A stretch of DNA of 64,000 nucleotides from Thermococcus guaymasensis DSM 11113 (GTDB lineage: Archaea; Methanobacteriota_B; Thermococci; Thermococcales; Thermococcaceae): assembly GCF_000816105.1 (NCBI RefSeq), contig NZ_CP007140.1:620001-684000 (forward strand), written 5' to 3'. Made by a program: the position numbers and the translations under genes. The notes under the pieces are model-generated. The model was not told where the DNA came from, did no database searches, and saw nothing but the letters and a program-made list of their open reading frames with translations. Shown piece by piece: positions 10,614-30,660 of the stretch (positions are counted from its first letter, which is position 1; the number at the start of each line of letters is the position of its first letter).

Positions 10614-10627
10614 CCTTTTTAAAGTTT
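10614..10627 (-). promoter_or_regulatory. TATA box for the Mrp-type operon
   Basis: On the minus strand AAACTTTAAAAAGG lies about 25 bp upstream of a predicted start near 10590, preceded by an A-rich BRE-like run. The 145-nt gap between the upstream gene and the antiporter start fits a separate transcript. Confidence 0.6.
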
Positions 10628-10711
10628 TTCGTTTTTCTTCGAAAGGTCTTTAGGCAAAAGTTAAATTAGAGCTAAAATTTGAGGAATGCTCAGAAGGCCT
10701 TTCGACTGATT

Positions 10712-11158: not shown

Positions 11159-11197
11159 CTTCTCACCTCACTTGAAATAAGTTTGGAAAATAAAAGT

Positions 11198-14754: not shown

Positions 14755-14756
14755 CT

Positions 14757-15677
14757 TCACCACCCCATGAACGCCATTGCGAGGATTACAATTCCCGCAA
14801 AGAAAGCCCTCGTGTTCATCTTAATGACGTGGTCTATCCTAAGCCTTGCGTTGGTGGCTTCCAGAGCCGCTATAATGGGGTAGAACGCTATCGTCAGCAG
14901 GAACTGAAGGGCCAGCACCAGTGCTGCCTTCTCCGCCGTGTCTACTGGTCCGACCCACGGGAGGACGAGCATGCTGACGAAGAACCACAGCAGGGCGAAG
15001 CGCTTGATGTAGATGGCGTAGTAGAAGACTCCGAGGAGCCTTCCGCTGTACTCAGCTAAAGGACCGCCTATGACCTCCTGCTCTGCCTCGGCTATGTCGA
15101 AGGGCACGAAGCCGCTCTCAACGTAGAGCGCGTAAGCGAGCAAGACGTAGGTCATGACGAGTGAGGGCGTGAGGTGAAGGTTCGCTATTATGTCCGCTAT
15201 GTTGAGCGAACCCGCGTTGTAAGCAAGGACGCCATAGAGTATCGCTATTAGCGGTTCGACGGTGAGGACGATCTGCATCTCCCTCGACGAACCTATGTGG
15301 CTGAAGGCGTTCTGGACGCTGAGGCCCGCCAGGATGAGGAAGACGCTGACCATCAGCACCACGTAGAAGAACACCACTAGGTTGAATCCGAAGTCAACGG
15401 GAACTACGTTGCCGTATGGCAGGAGCAGAGCCGCCGATATCGCCGAAGCGAGTGCAAGGTATGGCGCCCATGTAAAGATGGCGCTGGTAGTTGGCTTGAC
15501 CGAGGGGAGGGCAAAGAGCTTGTTGAGATCGTACCACGTCTGCATGAGGGGTGGACCGCGCCTGTACTGGAGTCTCGCCTTGACCCTCCTAGCTATACCG
15601 TCGAGGAAAGGAGGCAGGAACAGCAGCAGGATGATGCCCGCAAGGCTGAACCCAAGTTTGACCGCGTCTATCTCCAT
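14757..15677 (-). CDS. hycD: HycD/NuoH-like membrane subunit
   Basis: This 306-residue protein has about 8 membrane spans. RRVKARLQYRRGPPLMQTWYDL near the N-terminus and the FDIAEAEQEVIGGPLAEYSG loop are the NuoH/HycD signatures. The ATG at 15677 follows GAGGTGAGGGAG and was preferred over a slightly upstream GTG. NuoH-type subunits anchor the peripheral arm and link it to the antiporter-like subunits. The gene sits between the NuoL-like and large subunit genes with gaps of 10 and 2 nt. Confidence 0.94.
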   Translation of the reverse strand: MEIDAVKLGFSLAGIILLLFLPPFLDGIARRVKARLQYRRGPPLMQTWYDLNKLFALPSVKPTTSAIFTWAPYLALASAISAALLLPYGNVVPVDFGFNLVVFFYVVLMVSVFLILAGLSVQNAFSHIGSSREMQIVLTVEPLIAILYGVLAYNAGSLNIADIIANLHLTPSLVMTYVLLAYALYVESGFVPFDIAEAEQEVIGGPLAEYSGRLLGVFYYAIYIKRFALLWFFVSMLVLPWVGPVDTAEKAALVLALQFLLTIAFYPIIAALEATNARLRIDHVIKMNTRAFFAGIVILAMAFMGW

Positions 15678-15687
15678 CTCCCTCACC

Positions 15688-17706
15688 TCACAGCACTATC
15701 AGTATCCCAATAATCGCCCCCACTACCACAAGGGCCAGCACGACGAAGGTGCCGAGCCTTATTCCCGGGATGACATCCCTCGCTATGTTGAGGAACCTGA
15801 TGAGTGGCTTGAAGACCTCCTCGTCTATGTGCATGATTTCCCTTTCGCGGAGGTCATCGAGGGTCTCAACCTTTGTGTACGGAGTGTCAACTATCTTGGT
15901 GAAGTAGCTCGCCATCCAGAGGTAGGCTCTAACGAGGTAGTGGATTGCCCCAGCCCCAACGCGGTAGAACCAGTCGCCAAGGTGGTAGAACGAGCCTATC
16001 TTCTCCTCGTACCAGTTGTAGTAGCCCTCGGCGTTCGTCCTGTACTCGTCCTCGTCTATCTCTGTTGAACCGCAGTCCCAGGGTCTAGCGGTTTTGCCGT
16101 ACTCCGGCCTGAAGGAGAAGTACAGACCCACGGCAAGGGCGCCGAGGAGGATAACGAACATCACAGGCGAGAACATCACTGACTGGAACCCTATCTTGTA
16201 GATGTTGTCCTCTATTGGGGCGTTGAAGACGTTGGGGATTTCGGTGACAGCGTCATTGAGGATTCCCGTTACAGTTCTGGGAAAGACGCCGATGAGAAGA
16301 GTTAAACCAGCAAGAATCCACTGGCCAATGAGCATGCTCACAGGGGCCTCCTGAACGTTCTCGTAGCGCTTCATCTCACCGCCGAACTGGGTTCCGTAGA
16401 ACTTGATGAACGAGGCAAGCGTTGCCGCGCTGATGAATGCCGCTAGGACCGCACCGAGGGCTAAGATGTAGCTGTTGGAATAGTAGCCTGAGACATAGAT
16501 GAGCCACTTGCTTATGAAGCCGTTGAAGGGCGGAACGCCGCTTATGGCGAGCGAGGCGAAGAGCGCCGCCAAGGCTGTTCCTTTCATGGTCTTTCCGAGG
16601 CCGCCGAGCTCGTTGAGGTCAACGGTTCCGGTTCTGTACTCAACCGCTCCGGCTGAAAGGAAGAGCGAGGCCTTGAATATCGCGTGGTTGAGGGCGTGGA
16701 ATAGGCCGGCGAATGCTCCAAGAGCTCCAACGGCTCCAAGGAAGCCACCCTTCGGGATGAGGGCCATTCCTATGCCTATTCCGAGCCATATGTAGCCCAT
16801 CTGGCCAATTGAGTGGTAGGCGAGCAGTCTCTTGGCGTTGGTCTCCCTGAGCGCGTAGAGGGTTCCAACGGTGAGGGTTATGGCACCGAGGGTGGCAACG
16901 AAGAGGCCGAGGCTGTAACTCGTTCCGACGGTTCTCCAGATGAGGGCTATAAGGCCATAAATGGCCACTTTCTCCATTGCACCGGCCATAACCGCTGAAA
17001 CGCTGGTCGGGGCTGCGCGGTAGGTCTCCGCAACCCAGAACTGGAAGGGCACAATTCCAGCTTTTGCCATGAATGCCACCATGAGGAGCGCGGTAAGAAC
17101 CCACTTGGTGCTCTCCGGGGCGGTCAGGAGGGCGGTGTGTATGTTCTCAAAGGTGAGTTCCTCAAAGCTCCCCACGAGGGAGTAAGCGGTTCCCAGGGCG
17201 AGGAAGAGCGGTATCGTGTCAAGGAAGTGCATGGTGATGTAGTACTTGACGCTCGCGTTGACGTCCCTCGCTTTTTCGCTGAAGAAGACTAGTATGAACG
17301 AGCTGAGCGTCATGAGCTCCCAGCTCATTACGAAGTACTCCATGCTGTCAACGGTGACGACGAGGACCATGCTCGCGAGGAACGTGTTGTAGGCCACCGC
17401 GTAGACCCATCCCTTTCCGACCTTCTCGAAGAGCTCCATGTAGTTTATCGCGTAGAGCGAAGCCGCCGCTCCAACGAGGCCGATTATGAGGAGGAACACT
17501 ATCGAGAGGTCGTCTATCCTAACGGGAATTCCGAAGAGGTCGCCCGAGACAGGGCCATTGGTGTAGACTGCGTAAACCTGCCAGAGGAGCGCGAGTGAAC
17601 CGAGGAAGGCGATGAAGCTCGACGCCTTAACACTGGCTTTGTAGTCCCTAATTAGGCCGATTAGACCACCGAGGATGAACGCTCCAATCGCGTATTCGAG
17701 TATCAT
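15688..17706 (-). CDS. HycC/NuoL-like antiporter subunit of the hydrogenase
   Basis: This 672-residue protein has about 16 spans and a NuoL-style C-terminal extension: HIDEEVFKPLIRFLNIARDV followed by a last membrane helix. The TM5 Glu (FVMSWELMTLSSF) and TM7 Lys (VAFMAKAGIVPFQFWV) are present, as is the central Lys in TNAKRLLAYHSIGQMGY. It matches HycC/HyfB-type proton-pumping subunits. It lies 6 nt downstream of the other NuoM-like gene and 10 nt upstream of the hycD-like gene. It probably helps to convert redox energy into an ion gradient. Confidence 0.9.
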   Translation of the reverse strand: MILEYAIGAFILGGLIGLIRDYKASVKASSFIAFLGSLALLWQVYAVYTNGPVSGDLFGIPVRIDDLSIVFLLIIGLVGAAASLYAINYMELFEKVGKGWVYAVAYNTFLASMVLVVTVDSMEYFVMSWELMTLSSFILVFFSEKARDVNASVKYYITMHFLDTIPLFLALGTAYSLVGSFEELTFENIHTALLTAPESTKWVLTALLMVAFMAKAGIVPFQFWVAETYRAAPTSVSAVMAGAMEKVAIYGLIALIWRTVGTSYSLGLFVATLGAITLTVGTLYALRETNAKRLLAYHSIGQMGYIWLGIGIGMALIPKGGFLGAVGALGAFAGLFHALNHAIFKASLFLSAGAVEYRTGTVDLNELGGLGKTMKGTALAALFASLAISGVPPFNGFISKWLIYVSGYYSNSYILALGAVLAAFISAATLASFIKFYGTQFGGEMKRYENVQEAPVSMLIGQWILAGLTLLIGVFPRTVTGILNDAVTEIPNVFNAPIEDNIYKIGFQSVMFSPVMFVILLGALAVGLYFSFRPEYGKTARPWDCGSTEIDEDEYRTNAEGYYNWYEEKIGSFYHLGDWFYRVGAGAIHYLVRAYLWMASYFTKIVDTPYTKVETLDDLREREIMHIDEEVFKPLIRFLNIARDVIPGIRLGTFVVLALVVVGAIIGILIVL

Positions 17707-17712
17707 CTCACA

Positions 17713-19092
17713 TCACCCCGCAAAGCCTATCTTCATCACAACGTCGAGGCTTACCCAGGGCATTACTATGCCAACGATTATGAGGACGACCAGCACTGCA
17801 ACGATGACTTTCGGCTCCTTCTTGGCTTCGCCCTCGCCGAAAAAGCTCTCCCTGAACCAGAGGAGAACGACCACGAGCAGTATTGCGGCATCTATAAGAA
17901 CAACTCCTGGAAAGAGCCACGAGGCAATTCCCTTGGCGTGGCTGGTGCTCATGATTGTGAAGGCCTTGCTGAAGAACAGTCCGAGAGGTAAGACACCCGA
18001 GAGACCAAGGAAGCTGAGGAACCAGGCTATGCTCGTCCACGGGACGGTTCTCCTCATGCCCTTAATGAGCTTGAGGTCGGTCGTGCCGTAGGCGAGCGCA
18101 AGCCCGCCAACGGAAGCGAAGGCGAGGGCCTTAACGACGGCGTGGTTGACGACCTGGTAGAGGGCAATCTGAATTCCCTCCACGTGACCGAGGAGCGCGT
18201 AGGCGAGGGTTATGTAGGCAACCCCAGTCTGAGCTATGGTGGAATAGGCAATGAGCCTCTTTGCATCGCGCTGGAGCGGGTAGTAAATCATCATCAGGAT
18301 TACGAGAGCAACGCTCAAACCACCGAGAACCCAGAAGTACTCATCGTTTGGCTTCATGTACTGAATGACACGGAAGAGCATGTAGGCACCGAGCGGGACG
18401 ATTGAGGCGGAGTGGACGTAAGCACTTGCTGGAACCGGTGAAGCGGTTGAATCTGGGAGCCATGAGTAGAACGGGAGCTGGGAGCTCATCATGAAGGCGG
18501 CGAAAATTAGCAGCAGGAAGGCTGTGCCGTCGTAGGTGGCCTTGGTCAAATCCTGTCCCGCGCCGAGGACGGCCACGGCCCCAAGTATGAGGAGCACGCC
18601 AACGTTGAGGACGAGGAAGGCCTTGAGGGCGTCGGTCTTGGCGCCGCCGAGCTCAACTAAGAAGAGCATCGCTATCGCCATCAGCTCAAGGGCAACCGCA
18701 AACTGGACGAGGTTTGTGGAGTATATGAAGACCATGCTGGCCCCTGCAAGCAGGCCGAAGAGCGCGTAGAACTTTCCTTTTCCGGAGTCGAGGAACTTGC
18801 TCGTATAAACGGCCATCAAGAACGCAATCAGTATCGAGACGAAGCCCATGAGCATTGAAGCGACGTCCACGTTTATCCCAAAGACCTCGCCGAGGTTGCC
18901 GGTGGTAACGTAGCTCGTATGATAGACTTTCTCGGAGCCCTTTGAGAAGAAGTCATAGACCGCTACGCCATTGAGGAGCAGGGAAACGCCGAGGACCGAG
19001 TTCGCTATGAGGTCGGCCGTTCTTCCTTCGAACTTCCAGACGAGCAGGAGCGCAAAGGGGATGAGCGCTGAAACCAGCACCAGTTCGATCAT
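17713..19092 (-). CDS. NuoM/HyfF-like antiporter subunit lacking the TM7 lysine
   Basis: This 459-residue protein has about 14 spans. The TM5 Glu is kept (FAVALELMAIAML), but the TM7 stretch reads AAFMMSSQLPFYSWLPDSTASP, with Met/Ser where most homologues have Lys. The next His (SAYVHSASIVPLG) and the central Lys (DAKRLIAYSTIAQTG) are present. The ATG at 19092 follows GAGGTGAT with four bases between, so it was chosen over ATGs up to nine bases upstream. It is the first membrane gene after the ferredoxin subunit; the 50-nt gap before it is the largest within the formate-hydrogenase operon. Confidence 0.88.
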   Translation of the reverse strand: MIELVLVSALIPFALLLVWKFEGRTADLIANSVLGVSLLLNGVAVYDFFSKGSEKVYHTSYVTTGNLGEVFGINVDVASMLMGFVSILIAFLMAVYTSKFLDSGKGKFYALFGLLAGASMVFIYSTNLVQFAVALELMAIAMLFLVELGGAKTDALKAFLVLNVGVLLILGAVAVLGAGQDLTKATYDGTAFLLLIFAAFMMSSQLPFYSWLPDSTASPVPASAYVHSASIVPLGAYMLFRVIQYMKPNDEYFWVLGGLSVALVILMMIYYPLQRDAKRLIAYSTIAQTGVAYITLAYALLGHVEGIQIALYQVVNHAVVKALAFASVGGLALAYGTTDLKLIKGMRRTVPWTSIAWFLSFLGLSGVLPLGLFFSKAFTIMSTSHAKGIASWLFPGVVLIDAAILLVVVLLWFRESFFGEGEAKKEPKVIVAVLVVLIIVGIVMPWVSLDVVMKIGFAG

Positions 19093-19142
19093 CAACATCA
19101 CCTCTTGTTTTTAACCCTTGGTTTTCATTGCAAAAAAGAAGG

Positions 19143-19640
19143 TCAAAGGACGATGTACGCCTTCTCGCCCTCTCCCTTCTCGGCTGACTCCTTCAGGTTG
19201 GCAACTACCCTTCCTTCCCTGTTCCAGAGTATCTCGTTCACATCGCCGAACTTGAGTGCCTCAGTTGGGCAGGCCGAGACACAGGCCGGAAGCTTTCCTT
19301 CGGCTCTCCTGTCGGCACAGAGGTCGCACTTGTCCATAATCTTGTTCTCCTCGTCGAGCTTGGGGACACCGAAGGGACAGGCGACAGCACACATGAGACA
19401 GCCGATACACTTGAGGGGGTCGAAGGCAACAGCGCCATCCTCGTCCCTGAAGAGGGCTCCGGTCGGACAGACGTTGAGACAGGGAGCCTTTTCACAGTGG
19501 CGGCAGTTGAAGGGGACGGTGAAGAGGTCGGGGAACTCGAAGACCCTGATGCGGGCTTCGCCGTGAGTCATTTCACAGGCCACTTCACAGGCCTTACAGC
19601 CGATACAGCGCTTATAGTCGAGGAAAATCTTCTTGCTCAT
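19143..19640 (-). CDS. fdhB: Formate dehydrogenase-associated four-cluster ferredoxin
   Basis: This 165-residue protein has 16 cysteines in four [4Fe-4S] groups: CIGCKACEVAC, CRHCEKAPCLNVC, CIGCLMCAVAC and CDLCADRR with ACVSAC. This is the arrangement of HycB/FdhB-type electron carriers. It has no membrane anchor. The ATG at 19640 follows GAGGTGGT and lies 10 nt after the fdhA stop. It would take electrons from the molybdopterin subunit and pass them to the hydrogenase arm. Confidence 0.93.
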   Translation of the reverse strand: MSKKIFLDYKRCIGCKACEVACEMTHGEARIRVFEFPDLFTVPFNCRHCEKAPCLNVCPTGALFRDEDGAVAFDPLKCIGCLMCAVACPFGVPKLDEENKIMDKCDLCADRRAEGKLPACVSACPTEALKFGDVNEILWNREGRVVANLKESAEKGEGEKAYIVL

Positions 19641-19650
19641 TCCAACCACC

Positions 19651-21705
19651 TCACTCCTCCACCTTCCTAACCCTGGCCGCGACGGCCTTGAGCTCGGCCA
19701 TCTTGGTCTTCTCGTGAATTACATCAAGTGTCAGGAAGTTGACGTTCCAGTGCCACGGCATCGCTATGACACCCTCTCTCACGTGCTCGGTAACCTCTGC
19801 CCTGACGAGAATGCTTCCGCGCCTCGTCTCGACCTTGACGAGGTCTCCGCTCCTTATGCCGTACTTCTCGGCGTCCTTCGGGTTGATCATTACGTACTCC
19901 TCTGGCCAGCGCTTCTCAAGGCTGGGGCTCTCGAAGGTCATGGTTCCTGTGTGCCAGTGGCCAACTTCCCTGAAGTTGGTGAGCCAGAGCGGGTACTCTT
20001 CGTCGGGCATCTCCGGCGGCTCGCGCCACTTGACGGGCTGGAGGTGGGCCTTTCCATCGGCGGTCTTGAAGCCCTTCTTGAAGAGAACCTTCGTTCCCTC
20101 ACCGGGCTCGGTGCACGGGAAGAAGCATCCCTCGGGGTGCTCGGCGAGATATTCCGGAGTCGCGCCCTTGAAGACCGGGATGACGCTGTTTATCTCCCTG
20201 AGAATCTCATCGGGGTGCTCGTACTTGAAGTACTCGCCGAGGCCGAGCTCCTTAGCCAGCTCAACGATGATGAGCCAGTCCGGCTTGGCCTCCCCTGGAG
20301 CTTCAGCGGCCTTGTAAGTTCTCTGTACGCGCCTCTCGGCACTTATTGCGGTTCCGGTCTTCTCAAACCACGCTGCCGCTGGAAGGACTATATCAGCGTA
20401 TTTGGCCGTCTCGGTGAGGAATATGTCCTGAACGACGAGGAAGTCGAGCTTCTTGAGCTGTTCTCTAACCCACCCGCTGTTCGGGGCAGACTTGGCGATG
20501 TTGCCGGCGACGATGTACATCATGCGTATCTTGTTACCAGCCTCCCGTATCATCGTCGTCAGGTCGAAGCCAACCCAGTCCGGTATCTTGAAGCCCCAGA
20601 GCCTCTCAAGCTCGGCCCTCGCGGCCTCGTCGGTGACGAGCTTTCCTGTCGGGAGCTTGTTGGGGGCGATACCGCTCATCGCCGCACAGAATCCGCACTG
20701 CGCTCCTGGGAAGACACCGCTCCATACGCCCTCTTTGCCTATGTTGCCGGTGATCGCTATGAGGTTCGCGAGGGCGACTGCCATCTCAAAGCCGTTGACG
20801 TGCTGGTTCATTCCCTCGTTGACGAGAAGGGCCGTTCTCTTCGTCGCTATTAGCCTCGCGACCTTTCTTATGTCTTCAGCAGGAACACCGCTTATCTTCT
20901 CGGCCCACTCAGGGGTGTAGTCCTTAACAGCCTCTTTGAGCTCCTCGAAGCCAGTGGTTCTCTCCTGGACGAACTCCCTGTCGTAGAGCTCCTCGCTTAT
21001 GACGACGTTGAGCAGGGCTAAGGCTATCGCGAGGTCGGTTCCGGGGTAGGGCTTGAGGTGCATGCTCGCGTACTTGTGGCCCCTCGTGGCGCGCGGGTCT
21101 ATGACGACCATCTCGGCGCCGTTATCAAGGGCCTTCTCGATGTACTGGCCGAAGAACACCGGCGCGGTTTCAGCCGGGTTGTGGCCCCAGATGACTATCA
21201 GCTCGGCCTTGGCGACGTCCTCGAAGGGGTTTGTAGCTGGAGCGCTTCCAAAAACCGCCATTCTGGCAGGGCTGTTGGAGTACTGGCAGTATCTGCCCGG
21301 GAAGTCGAGGTGGTTGGTTCCTATGGCCTTGGACAGCTTGTGGACTAGGTAGTTCTCCTCGAGGGTTATCTTCTCGCTTCCGAGGAACGCTATCGCTTCT
21401 GGGCCGTATGTCTCTTTGATTTCCTTAATCTTCTCGGCGATTATTCTGTAGGCCTCATCCCAGCTTATCTCCTCGAACTTCCCTTCTCCCTTCTCTCCAA
21501 CGCGCTTGAGGGGCTTCTTGAGTCTCTTGGAGCTGTTGATGAACTGGTAGGAAGCAACGCCCTTGGGGCAGAGCTTTCCGCGGTTGACGGTGGGGTGGTC
21601 GTAGTCGAATTCAATCCTCCTGATGTATCCATTGACACTGACTGCGTAGAACCTGCAGCCGACGGAACACCAGGGGCACACAACCGGCACGAGCTTTTCA
21701 GCCAC
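19651..21705 (-). CDS. fdhA: Molybdopterin oxidoreductase, formate dehydrogenase alpha-like
   Basis: The 684-residue protein has an N-terminal [4Fe-4S] site (CPWCSVGC, then LCPKG) and molybdopterin dinucleotide-binding regions. The GTG at 21705 lies four bases after GAGGTGAT; the ATG at 21711 overlaps that site, and 21741 lies upstream of the predicted transcript start. With this start the metal ligand is Cys140 (GRYCQYSNSPAR) instead of selenocysteine. E. coli FdhF has His141 and Arg333; here they are Gln141 and Pro333 in a gap-free stretch (TGNIGKEGVWSGVFPGAQCG). The operon context points to formate oxidation for a hydrogenase, but the substrate deserves a test. Confidence 0.88.
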   Translation of the reverse strand: MAEKLVPVVCPWCSVGCRFYAVSVNGYIRRIEFDYDHPTVNRGKLCPKGVASYQFINSSKRLKKPLKRVGEKGEGKFEEISWDEAYRIIAEKIKEIKETYGPEAIAFLGSEKITLEENYLVHKLSKAIGTNHLDFPGRYCQYSNSPARMAVFGSAPATNPFEDVAKAELIVIWGHNPAETAPVFFGQYIEKALDNGAEMVVIDPRATRGHKYASMHLKPYPGTDLAIALALLNVVISEELYDREFVQERTTGFEELKEAVKDYTPEWAEKISGVPAEDIRKVARLIATKRTALLVNEGMNQHVNGFEMAVALANLIAITGNIGKEGVWSGVFPGAQCGFCAAMSGIAPNKLPTGKLVTDEAARAELERLWGFKIPDWVGFDLTTMIREAGNKIRMMYIVAGNIAKSAPNSGWVREQLKKLDFLVVQDIFLTETAKYADIVLPAAAWFEKTGTAISAERRVQRTYKAAEAPGEAKPDWLIIVELAKELGLGEYFKYEHPDEILREINSVIPVFKGATPEYLAEHPEGCFFPCTEPGEGTKVLFKKGFKTADGKAHLQPVKWREPPEMPDEEYPLWLTNFREVGHWHTGTMTFESPSLEKRWPEEYVMINPKDAEKYGIRSGDLVKVETRRGSILVRAEVTEHVREGVIAMPWHWNVNFLTLDVIHEKTKMAELKAVAARVRKVEE

Positions 21706-21726
21706 GTTCATCACCTCTGAATATAT

Positions 21727-21740
21727 TGACTGACTAGTCA
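21727..21740. promoter_or_regulatory. TetR-type palindrome at the fdhA transcript start
   Basis: TGACTGACTAGTCA fits TGACT-N4-RGTCA, shared with 22452-22465 and 22628-22641. It covers the predicted fdhA transcription start, about 25 bp downstream of the TATA box, so a bound regulator would block initiation (inference). Confidence 0.7.
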
Positions 21741-21752
21741 TTTGCTCTTGTA

Positions 21753-21846: not shown

Positions 21847-22434
21847 TCATATCTCAGCAGATAACTTAAGGTACGATGTAACAACATCCACCAAGTGGTT
21901 TAGGTACTCCTCGTCGCTGAAACCAACGCACTCCTTCGCGTGTAGATAGTGGAGCAAGGAACCAATGAAGACCTGAAAGGCTACGAGGGCCTGAGCAAAC
22001 CCGACTTTCGTATAAACCATTATTCTGCGGGCCCCAGTTCTAAGGAGCTCGGAGCAGGACTCACGATAAAGTAAATCGAGGGATTTACTCCGTTTTCTAA
22101 AGGCTAAGAGGCTGAAGAATATCTCACGGCGGTAGTTTTTGCCGTAGAATTCCAAAAACTCCCTGCCCAAGGCCAGAAGAAATTCCCTGAGAGTGGGGTA
22201 CGAAACAGTGATGTAAGGGTCTTGAAGGGAGGGAAACGCAGCTATGGGCATGGCATCAACGGCAATCTCCTTTATGAGGTCATCCTTGCTCTTAAAGTAG
22301 AGGTAGAACGTGCCCTTTGCGACCCCGGCACGATTCACTATCTCATCTACAGTGGCCTTATCGAAGCCCTTCTTCGCAAAGAGCTCCATTGCCGCGGAGA
22401 CGAGTTTCTCGCGGGTTTTACCCGGGGATTTCAT
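21847..22434 (-). CDS. TetR-family regulator, probable controller of the formate-hydrogenase and hyp genes
   Basis: This 195-residue protein has a typical TetR DNA-binding domain at about residues 8-55, including ATVDEIVNRAGVAKGTFYLY and YFKSKDDL, followed by a helical ligand or dimer domain. The ATG at 22434 follows GAGGGTGT; a GTG two codons upstream is less likely. It lies between fdhA (same strand, downstream) and the hypC-like gene (divergent). One 14-bp palindrome occurs in the promoters of all three genes. This suggests autoregulation and co-control of enzyme and maturation genes. The ligand is unknown; no surrounding gene identifies it. Confidence 0.9.
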   Translation of the reverse strand: MKSPGKTREKLVSAAMELFAKKGFDKATVDEIVNRAGVAKGTFYLYFKSKDDLIKEIAVDAMPIAAFPSLQDPYITVSYPTLREFLLALGREFLEFYGKNYRREIFFSLLAFRKRSKSLDLLYRESCSELLRTGARRIMVYTKVGFAQALVAFQVFIGSLLHYLHAKECVGFSDEEYLNHLVDVVTSYLKLSAEI

Positions 22435-22451
22435 GGGCACACCCTCGCTTC

Positions 22452-22465
22452 TGACTACTCAGTCA
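22452..22465. promoter_or_regulatory. TetR-type palindrome in the tetR promoter
   Basis: TGACTACTCAGTCA, a perfect TGACT-N4-AGTCA palindrome, overlaps the predicted tetR transcript start about 25 bp downstream of its TATA box. This is the usual place for self-repression. Confidence 0.7.
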
Positions 22466-22584: not shown

Positions 22585-22627
22585 AATTGTCAGGCGCGTA
22601 CTAGCCTTTCACAGCCATGTCCTTCTC

Positions 22628-22641
22628 TGACTGACTGGTCA
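22628..22641. promoter_or_regulatory. TetR-type palindrome upstream of the hypC-like promoter
   Basis: TGACTGACTGGTCA is the third copy, with one change in the right half-site (GGTCA). Unlike the other two it lies just upstream of the BRE/TATA at 22642-22658, a position where archaeal regulators may activate or hinder. Confidence 0.65.
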
Positions 22642-22658
22642 GGAAAAGGTCTATAAAT
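22642..22658 (+). promoter_or_regulatory. Promoter of the hypC-like gene (BRE/TATA)
   Basis: GGAAAAGGT followed by CTATAAAT places a transcript start near 22682, only a few bases before the ATG at 22687, so the mRNA is nearly leaderless. Confidence 0.6.
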
Positions 22659-22686: not shown

Positions 22687-22941
22687 ATGGCCCTGATGCT
22701 GGCAGGAAGGGTCGTTGAAGTCAGGGACGGGAAGGCAATAGTCGACGTTGATGGCAAGCTCAAGGAGGCGAGACTGGACTTCCTGAGGGACGTAAAACCG
22801 GGGGACTACGTGAAGATTTACTACGGCATAGTCCTTGAGAAGGTCAGTAAAGAAGAGGCCGAGGAGACCCTTGCAAGGTGTTCTTATCATCGCTCAAGGA
22901 AGCTCGAACTGACCTTCACGGTTTCAAACCGGAGGTTTTAG
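22687..22941 (+). CDS. HypC/HupF-family paralogue lacking the N-terminal cysteine
   Basis: This 84-residue protein has the HypC fold signature: VVEVRDGKAIVDVDGKLKEA, VKPGDYVKIYYGIVLEKVS. It begins MALMLAGR instead of MCL, so Cys2, which binds iron and the partner HypD in HypC proteins, is absent. The only cysteine is near the end (LARCSYH). The C-terminal tail (SRKLELTFTVSNRRF) is basic. The gene heads the maturation genes, 45 nt before a normal hypC. It may be a specialised chaperone or a regulatory relative; loss of function is possible but codon use looks normal. Confidence 0.82.
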   Translation: MALMLAGRVVEVRDGKAIVDVDGKLKEARLDFLRDVKPGDYVKIYYGIVLEKVSKEEAEETLARCSYHRSRKLELTFTVSNRRF

Positions 22942-22986: not shown

Positions 22987-23247
22987 ATGTGCTTAGCAAC
23001 CGTCGCTAAGGTTTTGGAGGTTAACAGAGAGAAGGGAACCGCGTGGGTTGACTTCGGCGGCGTTAGGAGAGAGGCGAGGATTGATCTGATGCCCGACGTC
23101 AAGCCCGGCGAGTACGTGCTGATTCACACGGGTTTCATAATAGAGAAGGTGGATGAGCAAACGGCCAGAGAGATACTTAGTGCCTGGGAGGAGGTCTTCA
23201 AAGCCGAGGAGAACGCACTTGGAGGCTATTACTACCCGGGTGATTGA
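22987..23247 (+). CDS. hypC: HypC hydrogenase maturation chaperone
   Basis: This 86-residue protein begins MCLATVAKVLEV, so the essential Cys2 is present. ARIDLMPDVKPGEYVLIHTG and EKVDEQTAREILSAWEE follow, as in HypC/HupF. The ATG at 22987 was chosen over a GTG three codons upstream because Cys2 must follow the initiator Met. It lies 1 nt before hypD, its usual partner in building the Fe(CN)2CO group. A weak TATA-like AAAGCTAAATAG stretch near 22943-22955 might give an additional promoter. Confidence 0.95.
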   Translation: MCLATVAKVLEVNREKGTAWVDFGGVRREARIDLMPDVKPGEYVLIHTGFIIEKVDEQTAREILSAWEEVFKAEENALGGYYYPGD

Positions 23248-23248
23248 G

Positions 23249-24376
23249 ATGGAGAGTGTCGAGTCGGTTCTGACCCCTTACAGAGACAGGGGAATAGCCC
23301 AGAAGCTCGTGGAAAAGATTAGGGAAGAGGCAAAAACCCTCGACGGGGAGATAAGGATAATGCACGTCTGCGGAACCCACGAGGACACAATTACCCGCTC
23401 TGGAATACGCTCCCTCTTACCCGAGAACGTCAAAGTCGTCAGCGGGCCCGGCTGTCCCGTCTGCATAACCCCCGTTGAGGACATCGTGGCGATGCAGCTC
23501 ATAATGAAAAAGGCCCGTGAGGAAGGGGATGAGATAATCCTCACGACCTTCGGCGACATGTACAAGATCCCGACGCCAATGGGAAGCTTTGCCGATTTGA
23601 AGGGCGAGGGCTACGACGTGAGGGTGGTTTACTCCATCTACGACGCCTACAAGATGGCCAAGGAAAACCCCGACAAAACTGTCGTCCACTTCAGCCCTGG
23701 CTTCGAAACGACAACCGCCCCAACGGCAGGGATGCTCAACGCCGTCGTCAACGAGGGCCTTGAGAACTTCAAGATTTATTCAGTGCATCGGCTCACGCCC
23801 CAGGGAATAGAGGTCCTCATAAAGCAGAAGAGCAGGATAGACGCGCTCATAGATGCCGGCCACGTCTCGACGATAATAGGCGTCAGGGGCTGGGAGTTTC
23901 TGAGCGAGAAATACGGGATTCCGCAGGTCGTAGCTGGCTTCGAGCCAAACGACGTCCTCCTCGCGATTCTGCTCCTCATACGGATGTACAAGGAAGGAGA
24001 CGCAAGGGTGGTGAACGAGTACAAGCGCGCCGTTAAGTACGAGGGCAATGTTGTCGCGCAAGAACTCATGAACAGGTATTTCAAGGTGGTCGATGCGAAG
24101 TGGCGCGCCCTTGGAATTCTTCCAAGGACAGGGCTGGAGGTCAGGGATGAGTTCAAAGAGCTCGAAATAAGGAACTTCTACCACGTCGAGGTTCCCAAGA
24201 ACCTGCCTGACCTTGAGAAGGGTTGCCTTTGCGGCGCCGTGCTGAGGGGATTAGCGATGCCAACAGACTGCCCTCACTTCGGAAAGACCTGCACACCGAG
24301 GAGCCCCGTCGGCCCGTGCATGGTGTCATACGAGGGGACATGCCACATATTCTACAAGTACGGGGCGCTGTTTTAG
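23249..24376 (+). CDS. hypD: HypD hydrogenase maturation protein
   Basis: This 375-residue protein has the HypD motifs in order: HVCGTHEDTITRSG, GPGCPVC, FSPGFETTTAPTAG, and a C-terminal cysteine-rich region (CLCGAVLRG, CPHFGKTC, GPCMVSYEGTC) that binds the [4Fe-4S] cluster. The ATG at 23249 sits one base after the hypC stop and agrees with the usual length of about 372 residues; upstream in-frame codons lie within hypC. With HypC it is the scaffold on which the cyanide and CO ligands are attached to iron. Confidence 0.96.
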   Translation: MESVESVLTPYRDRGIAQKLVEKIREEAKTLDGEIRIMHVCGTHEDTITRSGIRSLLPENVKVVSGPGCPVCITPVEDIVAMQLIMKKAREEGDEIILTTFGDMYKIPTPMGSFADLKGEGYDVRVVYSIYDAYKMAKENPDKTVVHFSPGFETTTAPTAGMLNAVVNEGLENFKIYSVHRLTPQGIEVLIKQKSRIDALIDAGHVSTIIGVRGWEFLSEKYGIPQVVAGFEPNDVLLAILLLIRMYKEGDARVVNEYKRAVKYEGNVVAQELMNRYFKVVDAKWRALGILPRTGLEVRDEFKELEIRNFYHVEVPKNLPDLEKGCLCGAVLRGLAMPTDCPHFGKTCTPRSPVGPCMVSYEGTCHIFYKYGALF

Positions 24377-24481: not shown

Positions 24482-24550
24482 CCCTAAACTAACCCCCTAT
24501 GACACCAAAGGTTCAAAACTCCCCTCTCGTTTTCAACTTTTGGTTTTGGA

Positions 24551-24560
24551 AATCTATAAA
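24551..24560 (+). promoter_or_regulatory. hypF TATA box
   Basis: AATCTATAAA lies about 35 bp before the ATG at 24594 and is followed by a GGTGAAAG ribosome-binding site, indicating a separate hypF transcript with a very short leader. No copy of the TetR palindrome is seen here. Confidence 0.5.
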
Positions 24561-24593
24561 GGCTTCAAATACCGAGAAAAAGCGGTGAAAGCT

Positions 24594-26912
24594 ATGAAGG
24601 CTTACCGCATTCACGTTCAAGGCATCGTCCAGGCCGTCGGGTTCAGGCCTTTCATCTACCGGATAGCTCACGAGCATAACCTGAGAGGTTACGTCAAGAA
24701 CCTCGGGGATGCGGGAGTCGAGATAGTCGTGGAGGGGCGAGAGGAGGATATAGAGGCCTTCATACGGGACATCCACCGCAAGAAGCCCCCACTCGCAAGG
24801 ATTGATAGGCTTGAGAAGAAAGAAATCCCGCCCCAGGGGTTCGACCGCTTTTACATCGAGAAGAGCTCCAAGGGCGGAAAGGGAGGGGACTCGATAATCC
24901 CGCCCGACATAGCAATCTGTGAGGACTGCCTGAGGGAGCTCTTCGACCCCACTAACAAGCGCTACATGTACCCCTTCATCGTCTGCACCAACTGCGGACC
25001 GAGGTTCACAATCATCGAGGACCTGCCCTACGACCGCGAGAACACGACCATGAGAGAGTTCCCGATGTGCGACTTCTGTGAGAGTGAGTACAAAGACCCG
25101 CTCAACAGGCGCTACCACGCCGAGCCCGTCTGCTGTCCGGTCTGCGGGCCGAGCTACAGGCTCTACACGAGTGACGGCGAGGAGATAACCGGAGACCCGC
25201 TCAGGAAGGCGGCAGAGCTGATAGACAGGGGCTACATCGTCGCCATCAAGGGAATCGGTGGCATTCACTTAGCGTGCGACGCGACCAACGAGGAGGTCGT
25301 TGCCGAGCTGAGGAAGAGGACTTTCCGGCCCCAGAAGCCCTTTGCAATAATGGCGGACTCAATTGAGACGATCAAAGAATTCGCCTACGTCAGTGAAGCC
25401 GAGGAAGAGGAGTTGACAAGCTACAGGAGACCAATCGTGACGCTCCGCAAGAGGGAGCCCTTCCCGCTCCCAGAGAACCTCGCACCGGGTTTGCACACCA
25501 TCGGCGTCATGTTGCCCTACGCGGGAACGCACTACATCCTCTTCCACTGGAGCAAAACGAAGGTCTACGTCATGACCTCGGCGAACTACCCTGGAATGCC
25601 GATGGTCAAGGACAACGAGAGGGCCTTTGAAGAGCTGAGGGAGATGGCCGACTACCTGCTCCTCCACAACAGGAAGATACTCAACCGCGCGGACGACAGC
25701 GTGATTCGCTTTGTTGACGGAAGGAGGGCAGTGATAAGGAGGAGCAGAGGTTTCGTCCCGCTTCCGATAGAGATTCCCTTCAACTACCGCGGTTTAGCCG
25801 TTGGCGCCGAGCTGATGAACGCCTTCGGCGTGGCCAAGAACGGAAAGGTCTACCCGAGCCAGTACATCGGCAACACCGGAAAGGTTGAAGTCCTTGAGTT
25901 CATGAGGGAAGCCATAGGGCACTTCAAAAAGATACTCCGCGTTAGGGAGCTCGATTTAATCGTTGCCGACCTCCACCCGAGCTACAACACGACGAAATTG
26001 GCTATGGAGCTTGCGAACGAGATGGGAGTTGAGCTCCTCCAGGTTCAGCACCACTACGCCCACATAGCGAGCGTTTTGGCGGAGAAGAACCTTGAGAGTG
26101 CCGTGGGAATAGCGGTTGATGGAGTGGGCTACGGGACGGACGGAAACGTGTGGGGCGGTGAGGTAATTTATCTTTCATACGAGGATGTCGAGAGGCTGGC
26201 ACACATAGACTACTACCCGCTCCCCGGCGGAGATCTGGCGAGCTACTACCCGCTCAGGGCTTTAATGGGAATTCTGAGCAAGATATACAGCGTTGAGGAG
26301 CTGGAGGGAATCATAACAAGGTGCTGCCCAAAGGCCATCGAGAGCCTCCGCTACGGAAAGGTTGAGTTCAACGTCGTACTGACCCAGCTGGCGAAGGGCA
26401 TCAACACGAGCTACGCGTCCTCAACTGGAAGGGTTCTCGACGCCCTGGCAGTCCTGCTAAACGTCGCCTACAGGAGGCACTACGAGGGAGAGCCTGCAAT
26501 GAAGCTTGAGAGCTTCGCGATAAAGGGCAAGAACGACCTCGGCTTTACCGTCCCGGTTGAAGGCGAGCTAATAAGGGTTGAAGAGCTCTTCACCCAGGCT
26601 CTCGATGTCCTCGAAAAGGCCTCACCAGCGGACATAGCCTACTCAGTTCACCTGGCATTGGCGAGGGCCTTCGCAGAGGTCGCGATTGAGAAGGCAAGGG
26701 AGTTCGGCGTGAAGGACGTGGTCATGAGCGGGGGTGTTGCCTACAACGAGCTTATAGTGAAAACCGTGAGGAAGGCGGTTGAGGCGTCGGGCCTTAAGTT
26801 CCACGTCACGACGGAAGTCCCACGCGGAGACAACGGAATAAACGTCGGCCAGGCCTTCCTCGGCGGGCTGTATCTGGAGGGCTACCTGACGAGGGAGGAC
26901 TTGATGCTCTAA
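24594..26912 (+). CDS. hypF: HypF carbamoyltransferase
   Basis: This 772-residue protein has the HypF domain order: acylphosphatase (residues about 1-90, GIVQAVGFRPFIYRIA), zinc-finger pairs (CEDC, CTNCG, CDFC, CCPVCG at about 105-185), a YrdC-like domain (about 200-380, GIGGIHLACDAT) and a Kae1-like domain (QVQHHYAHIASV; AVDGVGYGTDG). It makes the thiocarboxamide on HypE that becomes cyanide. The ATG at 24594 begins MKAYRIHVQG, the correct start of the acylphosphatase fold. It is separated from hypE by about 2.7 kb of unrelated genes. Confidence 0.96.
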   Translation: MKAYRIHVQGIVQAVGFRPFIYRIAHEHNLRGYVKNLGDAGVEIVVEGREEDIEAFIRDIHRKKPPLARIDRLEKKEIPPQGFDRFYIEKSSKGGKGGDSIIPPDIAICEDCLRELFDPTNKRYMYPFIVCTNCGPRFTIIEDLPYDRENTTMREFPMCDFCESEYKDPLNRRYHAEPVCCPVCGPSYRLYTSDGEEITGDPLRKAAELIDRGYIVAIKGIGGIHLACDATNEEVVAELRKRTFRPQKPFAIMADSIETIKEFAYVSEAEEEELTSYRRPIVTLRKREPFPLPENLAPGLHTIGVMLPYAGTHYILFHWSKTKVYVMTSANYPGMPMVKDNERAFEELREMADYLLLHNRKILNRADDSVIRFVDGRRAVIRRSRGFVPLPIEIPFNYRGLAVGAELMNAFGVAKNGKVYPSQYIGNTGKVEVLEFMREAIGHFKKILRVRELDLIVADLHPSYNTTKLAMELANEMGVELLQVQHHYAHIASVLAEKNLESAVGIAVDGVGYGTDGNVWGGEVIYLSYEDVERLAHIDYYPLPGGDLASYYPLRALMGILSKIYSVEELEGIITRCCPKAIESLRYGKVEFNVVLTQLAKGINTSYASSTGRVLDALAVLLNVAYRRHYEGEPAMKLESFAIKGKNDLGFTVPVEGELIRVEELFTQALDVLEKASPADIAYSVHLALARAFAEVAIEKAREFGVKDVVMSGGVAYNELIVKTVRKAVEASGLKFHVTTEVPRGDNGINVGQAFLGGLYLEGYLTREDLML

Positions 26913-27361: not shown

Positions 27362-28639
27362 ATGATTGAAAAAGAGGTTTGGGGAAGGATAATCAAGGAC
27401 CACCTCGAACACCGCGCCGAGGTCATCGAGAGGGACGTAACCGTCAAATTCCCGAAAACGCCGAGAGCCATCTCAATAATCGGGCCGAGAAGGGCCGGCA
27501 AAACCTACCTCATGTTCCAGCTCATAAACCGGCTTACTTCCGGCGGACTGCCGAGGGAGAAAACGGTCTACGTGAACTTTGAAGACCCCAGGTTGCTCGG
27601 TGCAGAGCTCAAAGACCTCCTAACCTTCCTCGACGTTTACTACGAAATGTTCCCCGAGAACGCCAGGGGGGAATGCCACTTCTTCCTCGACGAGGTTCAG
27701 AACGTTCCCGATTGGGAGAGGTTCGTCAGGTTCCTCCTCGACAGAAACCAGCGCGTCGTGGTCTCTGGCTCCTCTTCAAAGCTCCTCTCGAAGGAAATTG
27801 CAACGTCCCTCAGGGGAAGGAGCTTAAGCGTGAGGGTTTATCCCTTCTCCTTCAGGGAAGTCCTGAGGGCAAACGGGCTCAAGGTCGAGAAGTTCTATTC
27901 AACCTATGAAAAGGCAAAGATAAACAAACTCCTCCGCGAGTACCTGCACTGGGGTGGCTACCCCGAAGTGGTTTTAAACCCTCACCTGAGGGCTGAGATT
28001 CTGAGGGAGATAATCGACCTCACAATCTACCGCGACATCGTGGAGAGGTGGGGGGCCGAAAACCTGAAGGCCCTGAGGCTCCTCCTCAGGATGCTGGCCT
28101 TCTCCTCTCACCTTTCTGCATCCAAAGCCTACCGCAATCTGAAGAGCCTTGGCATCGGGGTTGGCAAGGCAACCGTGGCCAACTACATCGAGTACTTCTC
28201 GGACTCGATGATTCTCCACCCCCTGAGGCCCTACGTGAAGTCATACAAACTGCAGGAGCGGATGGGGTTTAAGCCCTATCTCGTCGATAACGGACTGCTT
28301 AAGGTGATGGGCGTCGAGGACGAGGGCAGGCTCTTGGAAAACCTCGTCTTCACGGAGCTTCTTAAACGGGGGTATGAGCCCAACGGGGAGCTGTTCTACT
28401 ACGTGACGAGGAACGGGCGCGAGGTTGACTTTGTAATCAAAGGAAGGGAGCTCATTCAGGTCACCGCGGAGCTTCACGAGAAAAACCGTGAGAGAGAACT
28501 CAGGGCTTTGATTGAAGCGGGTAGAGAATTGGGCATCGGAAAGCTAACGATAGTAACCTTGGAGCAAGATGACGTTGTAAAGACGGCGGGAAAGGAGGTA
28601 AAGGTGACCAGCCTGAAGAAATGGCTGCTGGGTCTTTAA
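27362..28639 (+). CDS. AAA-type ATPase with DUF4143 domain
   Basis: This 425-residue protein has a Walker A motif in SIIGPRRAGKTYLMFQ (about residues 38-52), a Walker B in CHFFLDEVQNVPDWERFV (about 103-120) and a sensor-like VVVSGSSSKLLSKEIATSLRG. The C-terminal DUF4143 domain has the nuclease-like NGREVDFVIKGRELIQVTAEL end. Such ATPases are common, mobile-looking genes in Thermococcales with no settled function. It lies between hypF and hypE, with its own promoter. A defence or toxin-antitoxin-linked role is speculative. Confidence 0.88.
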   Translation: MIEKEVWGRIIKDHLEHRAEVIERDVTVKFPKTPRAISIIGPRRAGKTYLMFQLINRLTSGGLPREKTVYVNFEDPRLLGAELKDLLTFLDVYYEMFPENARGECHFFLDEVQNVPDWERFVRFLLDRNQRVVVSGSSSKLLSKEIATSLRGRSLSVRVYPFSFREVLRANGLKVEKFYSTYEKAKINKLLREYLHWGGYPEVVLNPHLRAEILREIIDLTIYRDIVERWGAENLKALRLLLRMLAFSSHLSASKAYRNLKSLGIGVGKATVANYIEYFSDSMILHPLRPYVKSYKLQERMGFKPYLVDNGLLKVMGVEDEGRLLENLVFTELLKRGYEPNGELFYYVTRNGREVDFVIKGRELIQVTAELHEKNRERELRALIEAGRELGIGKLTIVTLEQDDVVKTAGKEVKVTSLKKWLLGL

Positions 28640-28703
28640 TAGGAACACTGGGTACCCAGGAAGGGTTTTAAGGGTTAAAATCAAACGCGCAATGGGTGAG
28701 GAA

Positions 28704-28916
28704 ATGGGCAGGGTGATCACGATTAGGGTTCCGGACTGGGCCGGCGACGACTTCATCAGGCGGATAGAGCGTATGGTTGAGGAAGAGATAGAGAAGACCT
28801 TCGCTTCCGGTAGGGTGGACAAAGAGACGTACCTCCGCTTCGTTGAGACCTACAACACTACCAAGGACGTTCTCCTTGAAAACGATGAGGAACTGCTCGC
28901 GGAGATGAGGTGCTAA
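28704..28916 (+). CDS. Small ribbon-helix-helix-like protein beside the MNT-HEPN pair
   Basis: This 70-residue protein begins MGRVITIRVPDWAGDDFIRR, a beta-strand then helix pattern typical of small antitoxin or CopG-like DNA-binding proteins. It continues with a charged helical part. The ATG at 28704 follows GGGTGAGGA and was preferred over the ATG at 28692; a TATA-like GGGTTTTAAG near 28663 fits. It ends 3 nt before the nucleotidyltransferase gene, so it may be the first gene of a three-gene cassette. It could regulate that cassette or be an orphan antitoxin. Confidence 0.68.
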   Translation: MGRVITIRVPDWAGDDFIRRIERMVEEEIEKTFASGRVDKETYLRFVETYNTTKDVLLENDEELLAEMRC

Positions 28917-28919
28917 TCA

Positions 28920-29246
28920 ATGCCCGTAATCCCAAGGGAAGAGCTCCTTGAAATCCTTCGCGAGGTGAAGGAAAGGCTGAGGAAAATCCTCGGCGACGAC
29001 TTAGTCGAGGTTATCCTCTTCGGCTCGTACGCGAGGGACGAAGCCAGGGAAGACAGCGACGTTGACGTTTTAGTTGTGGTGAAGAGGTGGCCAGACCCGG
29101 AGAAAGAATGGGAAATCGGGGAACTCATGACGGATTTGGTGCTGGAGTATGGGGTTGTGTTCTCAATAATCACCTATCCGCAGAAACCCGAGATGTTTCA
29201 TGACCCTCTAATCATAGCCGCGAGGAAGGAAGGTGTCAAAGTATGA
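28920..29246 (+). CDS. MNT-type nucleotidyltransferase antitoxin
   Basis: This 108-residue protein has the minimal nucleotidyltransferase signature EVILFGSYARDEAREDSDVDVLVVV (about residues 31-55), with the GS and the D-x-D metal ligands present. MNT proteins pair with HEPN toxins and can silence them by adding nucleotides. Its stop overlaps the HEPN start by 4 nt. This contrasts with the degenerate relative at 10712-11158. Confidence 0.9.
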   Translation: MPVIPREELLEILREVKERLRKILGDDLVEVILFGSYARDEAREDSDVDVLVVVKRWPDPEKEWEIGELMTDLVLEYGVVFSIITYPQKPEMFHDPLIIAARKEGVKV

Positions 29247-29641
29247 GCTGCAGGGATTATGAGAAGATACTCAGAAAGGCGGAAAAAAGCCTGCTCGCGG
29301 CAAAAAAGTTACTCGAAGAAAACCTACCCGAGTTCGCGGTGTCGAGAGCTTACTACACGATGTTCTACTGTGTGGAGGCCTTTCTTAGAACGAGAGGCAT
29401 AGAAGTTTCAAAGCATTCATCGGCAATAGCACTATTTGGCAGGGATTTTGTCAAAACGGGGGAAGTCCCCAGAAAATATCTCACATACGTGAACCTTGCG
29501 TTTAGGGCAAGACAGGTTGCGGATTATTCTTTCGGGCTGGAGGTATCTGAAGAAGAGGCCGCCGAGGAAATCCGGCGCGCTGAAGAATTCCTCGAATTTA
29601 CGAGGCGCTATCTCTCATCGAAGGGTTTTCTGGAGGGTTGA
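29243..29641 (+). CDS. HEPN-domain protein (putative RNase toxin)
   Basis: This 132-residue helical protein has the HEPN features AVSRAYYTMFYCVEAFLRTRG (about residues 34-54) and FRARQVADYSFGLEVSEEEA (about 90-109). The RxxxADY form stands in place of the RX4-6H of catalytic HEPN RNases, as in many MNT-paired proteins. It is coupled to the upstream MNT gene and ends 2 nt before the hypE start codon. The cassette therefore shares a possible transcript with hypE. Confidence 0.88.
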   Translation: MSCRDYEKILRKAEKSLLAAKKLLEENLPEFAVSRAYYTMFYCVEAFLRTRGIEVSKHSSAIALFGRDFVKTGEVPRKYLTYVNLAFRARQVADYSFGLEVSEEEAAEEIRRAEEFLEFTRRYLSSKGFLEG

Positions 29642-29643
29642 AG

Positions 29644-30660
29644 ATGGGCGAAAAGATAAAACTCGAACACGGGGCCGGCGGAGAGATAATGGAGGAGCTC
29701 CTCAGGGACGTTATATTGAAAACTCTGACCCTGAAGAGCGCGGGTGGAATAGGGCTGGACGCCCTTGACGACGGTGCGACGATACCGCTTGGGGACAAAC
29801 ACCTCGTCTTCACGATAGACGGCCACACTGTTAAGCCGCTTTTCTTCCCGGGCGGAGACATCGGCCGCTTAGCCGTAAGCGGGACGGTCAACGATTTAGC
29901 CGTGATGGGCGCAAAGCCCCTGGCCCTGGCAAACTCGATGATAATTGGCGAAGGCCTCGACATGGAAGTCCTTGAGAGGGTTCTCCGCTCGATGGACGAA
30001 ACCGCCAAAGAAGTTCCCGTTCCAATAGTCACGGGCGACACGAAGGTCGTGGAGGACCCCATAGAGATGTTCGTGATTACAGCGGGAATTGGAATCGCAG
30101 AAAAGCCAGTAAGTGACGCTGGAGCGAAGGTCGGCGACGTTGTTCTGGTCAGCGGGACGATAGGCGACCACGGGATAGCTCTGATGAGCCACAGGGAGGG
30201 GATAGCCTTCGAGACCGAGCTGAAGAGCGACGTAGCTCCCATATGGGAGGTCGTTGAAGCCGTCGCCAAGGCCATCGGCTGGGAGAAGATACACGCGATG
30301 AAGGACCCTACGAGGGCTGGATTAAGCAACGCCCTCAACGAGATAGCGAGGAAGAGCAACGTCGGAATCCTCGTGAGGGAAGCAGATATACCCGTGAAGC
30401 CAGAGGTGAAGGCCGCGAGCGAGATGCTGGGAATCAGTCCCTACGATGTTGCGAACGAGGGCAAGGTCGTTGTGGTTGTTGCCAAGGAGTATGCGGAAGA
30501 GGCACTTGAAGCAATGAGGAAGACGAAGAGGGGCAGGAACGCAGCGATAATCGGTGAGGTCATAGAGGAGTACAGGGGAAAGGTCATCCTCGAAACCGGA
30601 ATCGGCGGAAAGCGCTTTATGGAGCCGCCCGAGGGCGACCCCGTGCCGAGGATATGCTAA
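29644..30660 (+). CDS. hypE: HypE hydrogenase maturation dehydratase
   Basis: This 338-residue protein of the PurM/AIR synthetase family has LEHGAGGEIMEELL at the N-terminus, DDGATIPLGD, DPTRAGLSNALNEIA, and ends in DPVPRIC. The C-terminal cysteine is the site that receives the carbamoyl group from HypF and is dehydrated to thiocyanate. The ATG at 29644 follows GGAGGGTTGA. Length and ends match Thermococcus HypE. It follows the HEPN gene directly and its last four bases overlap the convergent ATPase gene. Confidence 0.96.
   Translation: MGEKIKLEHGAGGEIMEELLRDVILKTLTLKSAGGIGLDALDDGATIPLGDKHLVFTIDGHTVKPLFFPGGDIGRLAVSGTVNDLAVMGAKPLALANSMIIGEGLDMEVLERVLRSMDETAKEVPVPIVTGDTKVVEDPIEMFVITAGIGIAEKPVSDAGAKVGDVVLVSGTIGDHGIALMSHREGIAFETELKSDVAPIWEVVEAVAKAIGWEKIHAMKDPTRAGLSNALNEIARKSNVGILVREADIPVKPEVKAASEMLGISPYDVANEGKVVVVVAKEYAEEALEAMRKTKRGRNAAIIGEVIEEYRGKVILETGIGGKRFMEPPEGDPVPRIC

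Follow-up and report, generated by a model that had tools for sequence, protein, structure and literature searches.

What is left for a HypC-like protein to do once it lacks the cysteine through which HypC holds its iron group? The question is raised by a gene at positions 22687–22941 of a 64,000-nucleotide stretch of the Thermococcus guaymasensis DSM 11113 genome (contig NZ_CP007140.1, positions 620,001 to 684,000; hereafter the window), which heads a set of hydrogenase maturation genes and encodes a Cys2-less HypC paralogue, here designated PAR. In HypC, Fe(CN)2CO is held by Cys2 together with Cys41 of HypD (PMC11565642), and a histidine of HypC and of its relative HybG assists HypD binding (PMC9002611). 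PAR has lost Cys2 and, in all but one of its copies, the histidine as well, while remaining under purifying selection beside the genes of one formate hydrogenlyase lineage. Judged by these features, it probably does a different job from HypC in building formate hydrogenlyase.

Homology and altered residues of PAR

The PAR reading frame runs on the forward strand from an ATG at 22687 to a stop at 22941, yielding a product of 84 amino acids (MALMLAGRVVEV...CSYHRSRKLELTFTVSNRRF) that begins MALMLAG and carries a CSYH stretch further on, with C65 as its sole cysteine. It matches PF01455 with 55.8 bits (cut-off 28.5) and TIGR00074 with 48.1 bits, only 0.1 above the cut-off of 48. Residues 1–63 align without gaps to residues 1–63 of Thermococcus kodakarensis HypC (2z1c), which with 3vyr represents the closest solved structures, and Ala2 falls opposite Cys2. 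In an AlphaFold model built from the 26-row alignment of orthologues, the barrel and first helix are confidently predicted and residues 68–84 fall below 50 in the predicted local distance difference test (pLDDT); the top Foldseek match of the model is again 2z1c (E 5.5e-6, 41% identity). By both the HupF_HypC sequence profile and the fold, PAR belongs to the HypC family, from which it plainly descends. An earlier note on this DNA had described the gene as beginning MALMLAG where HypC has MCL, with a single cysteine near the C-terminus; the reading frame, the start and the Ala2-for-Cys2 register bear this out, and the cysteine, residue 65, is invariant in 26/26 copies.

The distribution of PAR was surveyed by searching its profile against 115 genomes of the phylum. 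Orthologues were found in 26, all in the genus Thermococcus and scoring at least 118.7 bits, and a gap in score separates them from ordinary HypCs at 63.1 bits and lower. One copy (locus L047) lies in G019, presumably Thermococcus gammatolerans. A second genome collection scanned for PAR yielded 11 loci, all assigned to Thermococcus or Thermococci. The survey of Thermococcales called for by the earlier note thus places the paralogue in 26 genomes, in none of which does it carry Cys2: the second residue is alanine in 24, serine in one and absent from the remaining copy (L054). By contrast, Cys2 is present in 52/52 ordinary HypCs (three sets, of 40, 10 and 2). A search of plasmids gave 103 records; in the 40 of them listed, the HypC matches begin at residue 1, a result that concerns the start of the match and not the identity of the second residue.

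The loss of Cys2 is part of a wider substitution. In a column table of 40 HypCs (27 of the type-B form described below and 13 chosen ordinary ones), Cys2, Ala4, Phe21, His45, Thr46, Phe48 and Trp65 are invariant; in the same register PAR has Met, Val, Tyr, Ile and Cys at positions 4, 21, 46, 48 and 65, each in 26/26 copies, and Tyr in 25 and His in one at position 45. Two of these changes bear directly on known function or structure: the HypD-interface histidine (E. coli H51), kept in 40/40 HypCs, is tyrosine in every PAR except L054, and the tryptophan of the C-terminal helix, likewise kept in 40/40, is replaced by the cysteine of an invariant Cys-Ser-Tyr, the only cysteine in any of the 26 proteins. 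Two invariant patterns at the same positions indicate a changed task, not a loss of constraint, and the former iron pocket of PAR appears, on these alignments, to be re-specified rather than relaxed. Because Cys2, the histidine and the helix tryptophan were looked for and found absent, it would be wrong to class PAR as a HypC chaperone. The margin of 0.1 bit on TIGR00074 means that databases probably label it a hydrogenase formation chaperone nonetheless, which is a warning about automatic annotation.

That PAR is a relic in decay, or that its start has been annotated wrongly, is very improbable. Beyond the missing cysteine, all that speaks for this is somewhat faster evolution than in the neighbouring HypC: the median ratio of nonsynonymous to synonymous substitution rates (dN/dS) is 0.155 for PAR and 0.063 for the type-B HypC, computed from pairs with dS below 1.5 (223/325 and 104/300, respectively). 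These values indicate purifying selection on both, weaker on PAR, within which the tail (0.284) is less constrained than the core (0.138). Recent decay is ruled out by the loss of Cys2 in 26/26 copies, by 23 invariant columns in the 26-row alignment and by this selection, and is further contradicted by the conserved promoter and start. Nor has the start been mis-called. No M-C terminus lies upstream of the PAR ATG, where the frame of the window reads IVFLHLWLIA; across the 26 copies the upstream open frame contains a cysteine in only two, in neither case as M-C. The TATA box, moreover, lies 35 nucleotides ahead of the ATG, so that a longer protein would start at or before the expected start of the transcript. 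The two findings that the earlier note had named as fatal to its proposal, an upstream MC- start and orthologues keeping Cys2, were both sought and neither was found.

The HypC that follows PAR is itself distinct. This form, termed HypC-B, has a two-residue insert and a GGYYYPGD tail, has lost the proline of the MCLA(V/I)P motif, and forms a clade of 27 rows (support 100/99). In a tree with the same 40 HypCs, PAR likewise forms a single clade (26 rows, support 100/100) on a stem of 3.17 changes per column, so long that the position of the root is unsure. PAR does not join HypC-B in the free tree, though a tree uniting the two is not rejected (p-AU, approximately unbiased test, 0.33). The idea that PAR is a recent duplicate of the neighbouring hypC accordingly finds no support in the free tree, though it is compatible with the p-AU value.

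Promoter and genomic linkage

The genes and sites around PAR in the window are as follows.

2976–19649, reverse strand: FdhB, Mfh hydrogenase and Mnh antiporter modules of formate hydrogenlyase (Pfam matches)
12955–14763, reverse strand: MfhL, the Mfh large subunit, within these modules
19651–21741, reverse strand: fdhA, formate dehydrogenase alpha (TIGR01591, 671 bits), its true start probably downstream of the operator
21727–21740, no strand: third operator, at the fdhA start, an exact palindrome
21847–22440, reverse strand: TetR-family regulator (PF00440, 70 bits), adjoining PAR in all 25 other loci
22452–22465, no strand: second operator, upstream of tetR, an exact palindrome
22627–22642, no strand: operator CTGACTGACTGGTCAG in the PAR promoter
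22652–22657, forward strand: TATA box (TATAAA), its position kept in aligned upstream regions
22687–22941, forward strand: PAR
22987–23247, forward strand: hypC proper, of the HypC-B type (PF01455, 88 bits), with Cys2, His and Trp present
23249–24376, forward strand: hypD (PF01924, 450 bits; TIGR00075, 446 bits)
24540–26912, forward strand: hypF (TIGR00143, 877 bits)
29638–30660, forward strand: hypE-like gene (AIRS / AIRS_C), after a short insertion behind hypF

As had been noted before, a normal hypC directly follows PAR, and the PAR promoter carries the third of three TetR-type palindromes; this hypC starts MCLATVAK, and hypD and hypF lie behind it. Exact TGACT-N5-GTCA sites occur in the window at 21727, 22452 and 22628; genome-wide the loose pattern has 15 distinct exact sites, of which these three form the only cluster. 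If a single mismatch is tolerated, the whole window contains 18 sites against 11.7 expected, which is no significant excess. The site at 22628 is conserved among orthologues: TGACTGACYRGTCA is exact in 23/26 PAR promoters and has one mismatch in the remaining three, with the TATA box mostly 35 nucleotides ahead of the start. Related operator sites are present in 5/6 paralogue-free loci examined; in the paralogue-free locus L096 none was found. The TetR protein of the PAR locus presumably binds these putative operators. A review of 'Group 4' fhl operons gives their regulation as unknown and places a TetR gene upstream of almost all of them (PMC10025317). The longest fdhA frame opens with ATG ACT AGT CAG TCA (MTSQS), codons that are overlapped by the site at 21727–21741, so that FdhA probably starts downstream, at MNVAEKL; many FdhA orthologues match only from residue 4–14 onward.

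Although some PF01455 match is present in 89/94 genomes of the family, the hyp loci are of two kinds, with either a single ordinary HypC or PAR together with HypC-B. In the window, and equally in 25/25 other loci, PAR is flanked by tetR-fdhA on one side and by HypC-B on the other. Close relatives of FdhA (at least 78% identity) were found in 25/26 PAR genomes at the E-value used, in pieces in G046 and G048; in G051 FdhA was seen as an edge fragment only, and in G061 (73% complete) such an FdhA fragment lies on a 3.3-kb contig and no PAR was found. The next FdhA relatives are at most 61% identical, several of them in an fdhA-tetR-hypC layout with a single ordinary HypC and no PAR. Loci of the kind that we take to be that of Thermococcus onnurineus NA1 have the same fdhA-tetR-hyp layout as PAR loci without PAR, and PAR is therefore tied to only one of two sister hydrogenlyase lineages. 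Co-occurrence with the FdhA-Mfh-Mnh cluster, which the earlier note had put up for checking, consequently holds for one hydrogenlyase lineage and fails for the NA1-type loci. Within these limits PAR is encoded alongside a single hydrogenase system and occurs with no other, as befits a dedicated paralogue of the HybG/HupF type.

Two natural rearrangements separate the components of the locus. In G046 (contig C90), PAR and HypC-B are kept beside tetR-fdhA, and hypD, hypF and hypE are gone from the locus; the genes that come after are pyruvate oxidoreductase genes, found beyond hypE in the window, and the only hypD of this genome is on another contig with an ordinary hypC. In G012, a genome without PAR, HycI and MobA are followed directly by HypC-B, hypD and hypF; the hydrogenlyase, TetR and PAR are all missing, and this HypC-B copy lacks the tail. 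Together they indicate that PAR goes with the hydrogenlyase rather than following hypDFE or HypC-B itself.

Of the 23 HypDs read from PAR loci, 15 belong to one lineage, which one paralogue-free genome shares, and 8 to a second, separate one, indicating that PAR needs no particular HypD; a link of PAR to one HypD type is ruled out on this ground. The HypD tree comprised 38 rows from 41 sources, with L046 missed by the motif search, L056 lacking hypD and L057 at a contig edge. Across the genus (L033–L072) HypD likewise forms two well separated lineages that neighbouring genes do not track, which suggests gene replacement within the operon. In a comparison of distance matrices (mirror-tree; 24 of the 25 loci given, L057 not among them), PAR agrees best with FdhA (r 0.64) and HypC-B (0.60) and least with HypD (0.32), correlations that are weak and confounded by linkage.

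Possible function and competing explanations

From homology, residue losses, selection, linkage and promoter, all established at the level of sequence, we infer the partners and action of PAR as follows. The reading that we favour, at somewhat less than an even chance, is that PAR is a dedicated 'pseudo-HypC' of one TetR-controlled formate hydrogenlyase lineage, serving as an adaptor or holdase in the maturation of its large subunit. PAR would be made together with the hydrogenlyase, would be unable to hold Fe(CN)2CO in the manner of HypC and would not form the normal HypC-HypD scaffold. Its remodelled pocket face and C-terminal tail may instead dock on apo MfhL, keeping it open and reserved for cofactor loading; alternatively, PAR might pass MfhL to its companion HypC-B, which would bring the cofactor. 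The loss of the histidine, the occurrence of PAR with two HypD lineages and both natural deletions together make a role in the HypD scaffold the least likely and a hydrogenlyase-specific accessory role the most likely. The literature on HypC describes its partner as either HypD or the apo-large subunit, never both (PMC12134894), and a His52-to-Ala exchange in HybG as gaining an interaction with pre-HycE, the precursor of the E. coli hydrogenlyase large subunit (PMC9002611). A bolder and rather unlikely version would make PAR a HypC-fold protein whose lack of catalysis is by design, the first of its kind. With a hydrophobic pocket that has been remodelled and a C65 that is essential, this pseudo-chaperone would bind the apo-large subunit of one hydrogenase and so control both the timing and the destination of cofactor delivery. 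If true, this would add a layer of maturation control without a described counterpart on the chaperone side.

Several points weigh against the adaptor or holdase role. E. coli HypC is reported to need Cys2 as an essential residue in order to bind apo-HycE (PMC12134894), which argues against HypC-like docking of PAR on a HycE-like subunit, and the tail that would share in docking is without a confident model (pLDDT below 50). A genome with a single ordinary HypC and no PAR has an MfhL about 86% identical to that of the window, and in NA1-type loci an MfhL of 71% identity is matured with no PAR present, indicating that PAR is not generally required. As the genes are neighbours, their co-occurrence counts as a single linked observation rather than as separate evidence from each locus. 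The natural rearrangements are each a single case; G046 is a fragmented draft assembly with a contamination value of 4, and the layout of G012 could be an ancestral state rather than a deletion.

Among the other explanations, a chaperone for a different ligand is improbable: here C65 of the CSY stretch would replace Cys2 and carry iron, nickel, a persulfide or some other group to the hydrogenlyase or to FdhA. The invariance of C65, S66 and Y67 in 26/26 copies, ahead of a less constrained tail, fits such a role; yet C65 stands alone, with no other invariant metal ligand nearby (His68 is missing in 4/26), and it aligns with the helix tryptophan of HypC and not with the pocket. In its favour one might also cite the lack of HypB, for which no match exceeded the cut-off in any of the 94 family genomes, so that nickel delivery differs generally; but this absence extends to genomes with and without PAR alike and has already been published (PMC2718504), which rules out a link between PAR and the loss of HypB. 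Another possibility is that PAR is no hydrogenase chaperone but a small subunit or assembly factor on the formate dehydrogenase side that happens to have a HypC barrel. PAR lies near fdhA in every locus, its presence is tracked by the close FdhA orthologues, and its distance matrix agrees best with those of FdhA and HypC-B; those correlations follow linkage, however, PAR is transcribed with hypC and away from fdhA, and its first helix and whole barrel are HypC-like, leaving this account a small chance.

The ancestral HypC function may also have been split over two chains, PAR and HypC-B, acting as a heterodimer, an arrangement for which we see similarly little prospect. PAR always adjoins HypC-B, a form marked by an insert peculiar to it and by a GGYYYPGD-like tail that is missing from the copy without PAR, and the tree uniting the two is not rejected; against this, the tail argument rests on that one negative case, PAR stands apart in the free tree, and HypC-B has kept every catalytic residue. 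A decoy or inhibitor, a dead HypC that would compete for HypD or the large subunit and hold maturation back, has a slim chance, a little lower still. A fold kept while active residues are lost is the usual make-up of a dominant-negative homologue, but PAR shares the operator class of the enzyme that it would inhibit and heads the maturation operon, and loss of the HypD-facing histidine together with tolerance of two HypD lineages also speaks against this role.

Related chaperones and minor observations

The differences that set PAR apart from HypC (PF01455 / TIGR00074; 2z1c, 3vyr), with which it shares a gapless N-terminal region, the barrel and an operon with hypD and hypF, are the absence of Cys2, His to Tyr, Thr-Gly-Phe to Tyr-Gly-Ile, the helix Trp to Cys-Ser-Tyr, and a different tail. 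HupF of Rhizobium leguminosarum and HoxL are HypC paralogues that retain Cys2. Like PAR they are encoded beside hydrogenase genes and have an extra C-terminal part, and HupF binds and protects the large subunit (PMC3534401). However, HupF is found together with HupK, in bacteria whose hydrogenase is made under oxygen (PMC3534401), whereas PAR belongs to a strictly anaerobic, archaeal cluster, and among the window proteins scanned HupK was not found. HoxV and HupK resemble PAR as 'pseudo' forms of a maturation partner that act as accessory scaffolds (PMC12134894), but they mimic the large subunit and PAR mimics the chaperone. E. coli likewise has, in HybG, another chaperone of the HypC family that is reserved for certain hydrogenases (PMC9002611); it differs from PAR in keeping H52, and it carries Fe(CN)2CO (PMC8692609). 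Two HypC-like genes have been recorded in T. gammatolerans, in a section that mentions neither a missing Cys2 nor a role (PMC2718504); this was the only remark found in searches of the open-access literature, in which no mention of the missing Cys2 was seen either, subscription papers and supplements lying outside the search.

Having lost both key residues while selection maintains it next to a single hydrogenase, PAR offers a ready-made separation-of-function tool. With its help one can learn which regions of HypC recognise the client when no cofactor is transferred, and it bears on the choice between HypD and the large subunit. As Thermococcus formate hydrogenlyases are used for biohydrogen, an extra maturation factor also matters when their clusters are moved between hosts.

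In PAR-bearing loci the shared part of MfhL is preceded by an N-terminal extension that contains a CxxCx4C-like stretch (ECxAC....C). This was the only candidate seen for an MfhL feature peculiar to these loci, and paralogue-free loci also show related cysteine patterns. The insertion between hypF and hypE (27362–29641) comprises a gene for an AAA_14/DUF4143 ATPase along with small genes resembling an MNT-HEPN pair, a label that comes from inspection of the sequence and has no family match behind it; in L088 the small pair is present and the AAA_14/DUF4143 ATPase was not found. In L100 of G025, which we take to be T. onnurineus NA1, hypD (16869–17968) is in two overlapping pieces in different frames. 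The 'two hypD copies' given for that species in a 2009 paper may be this split gene.
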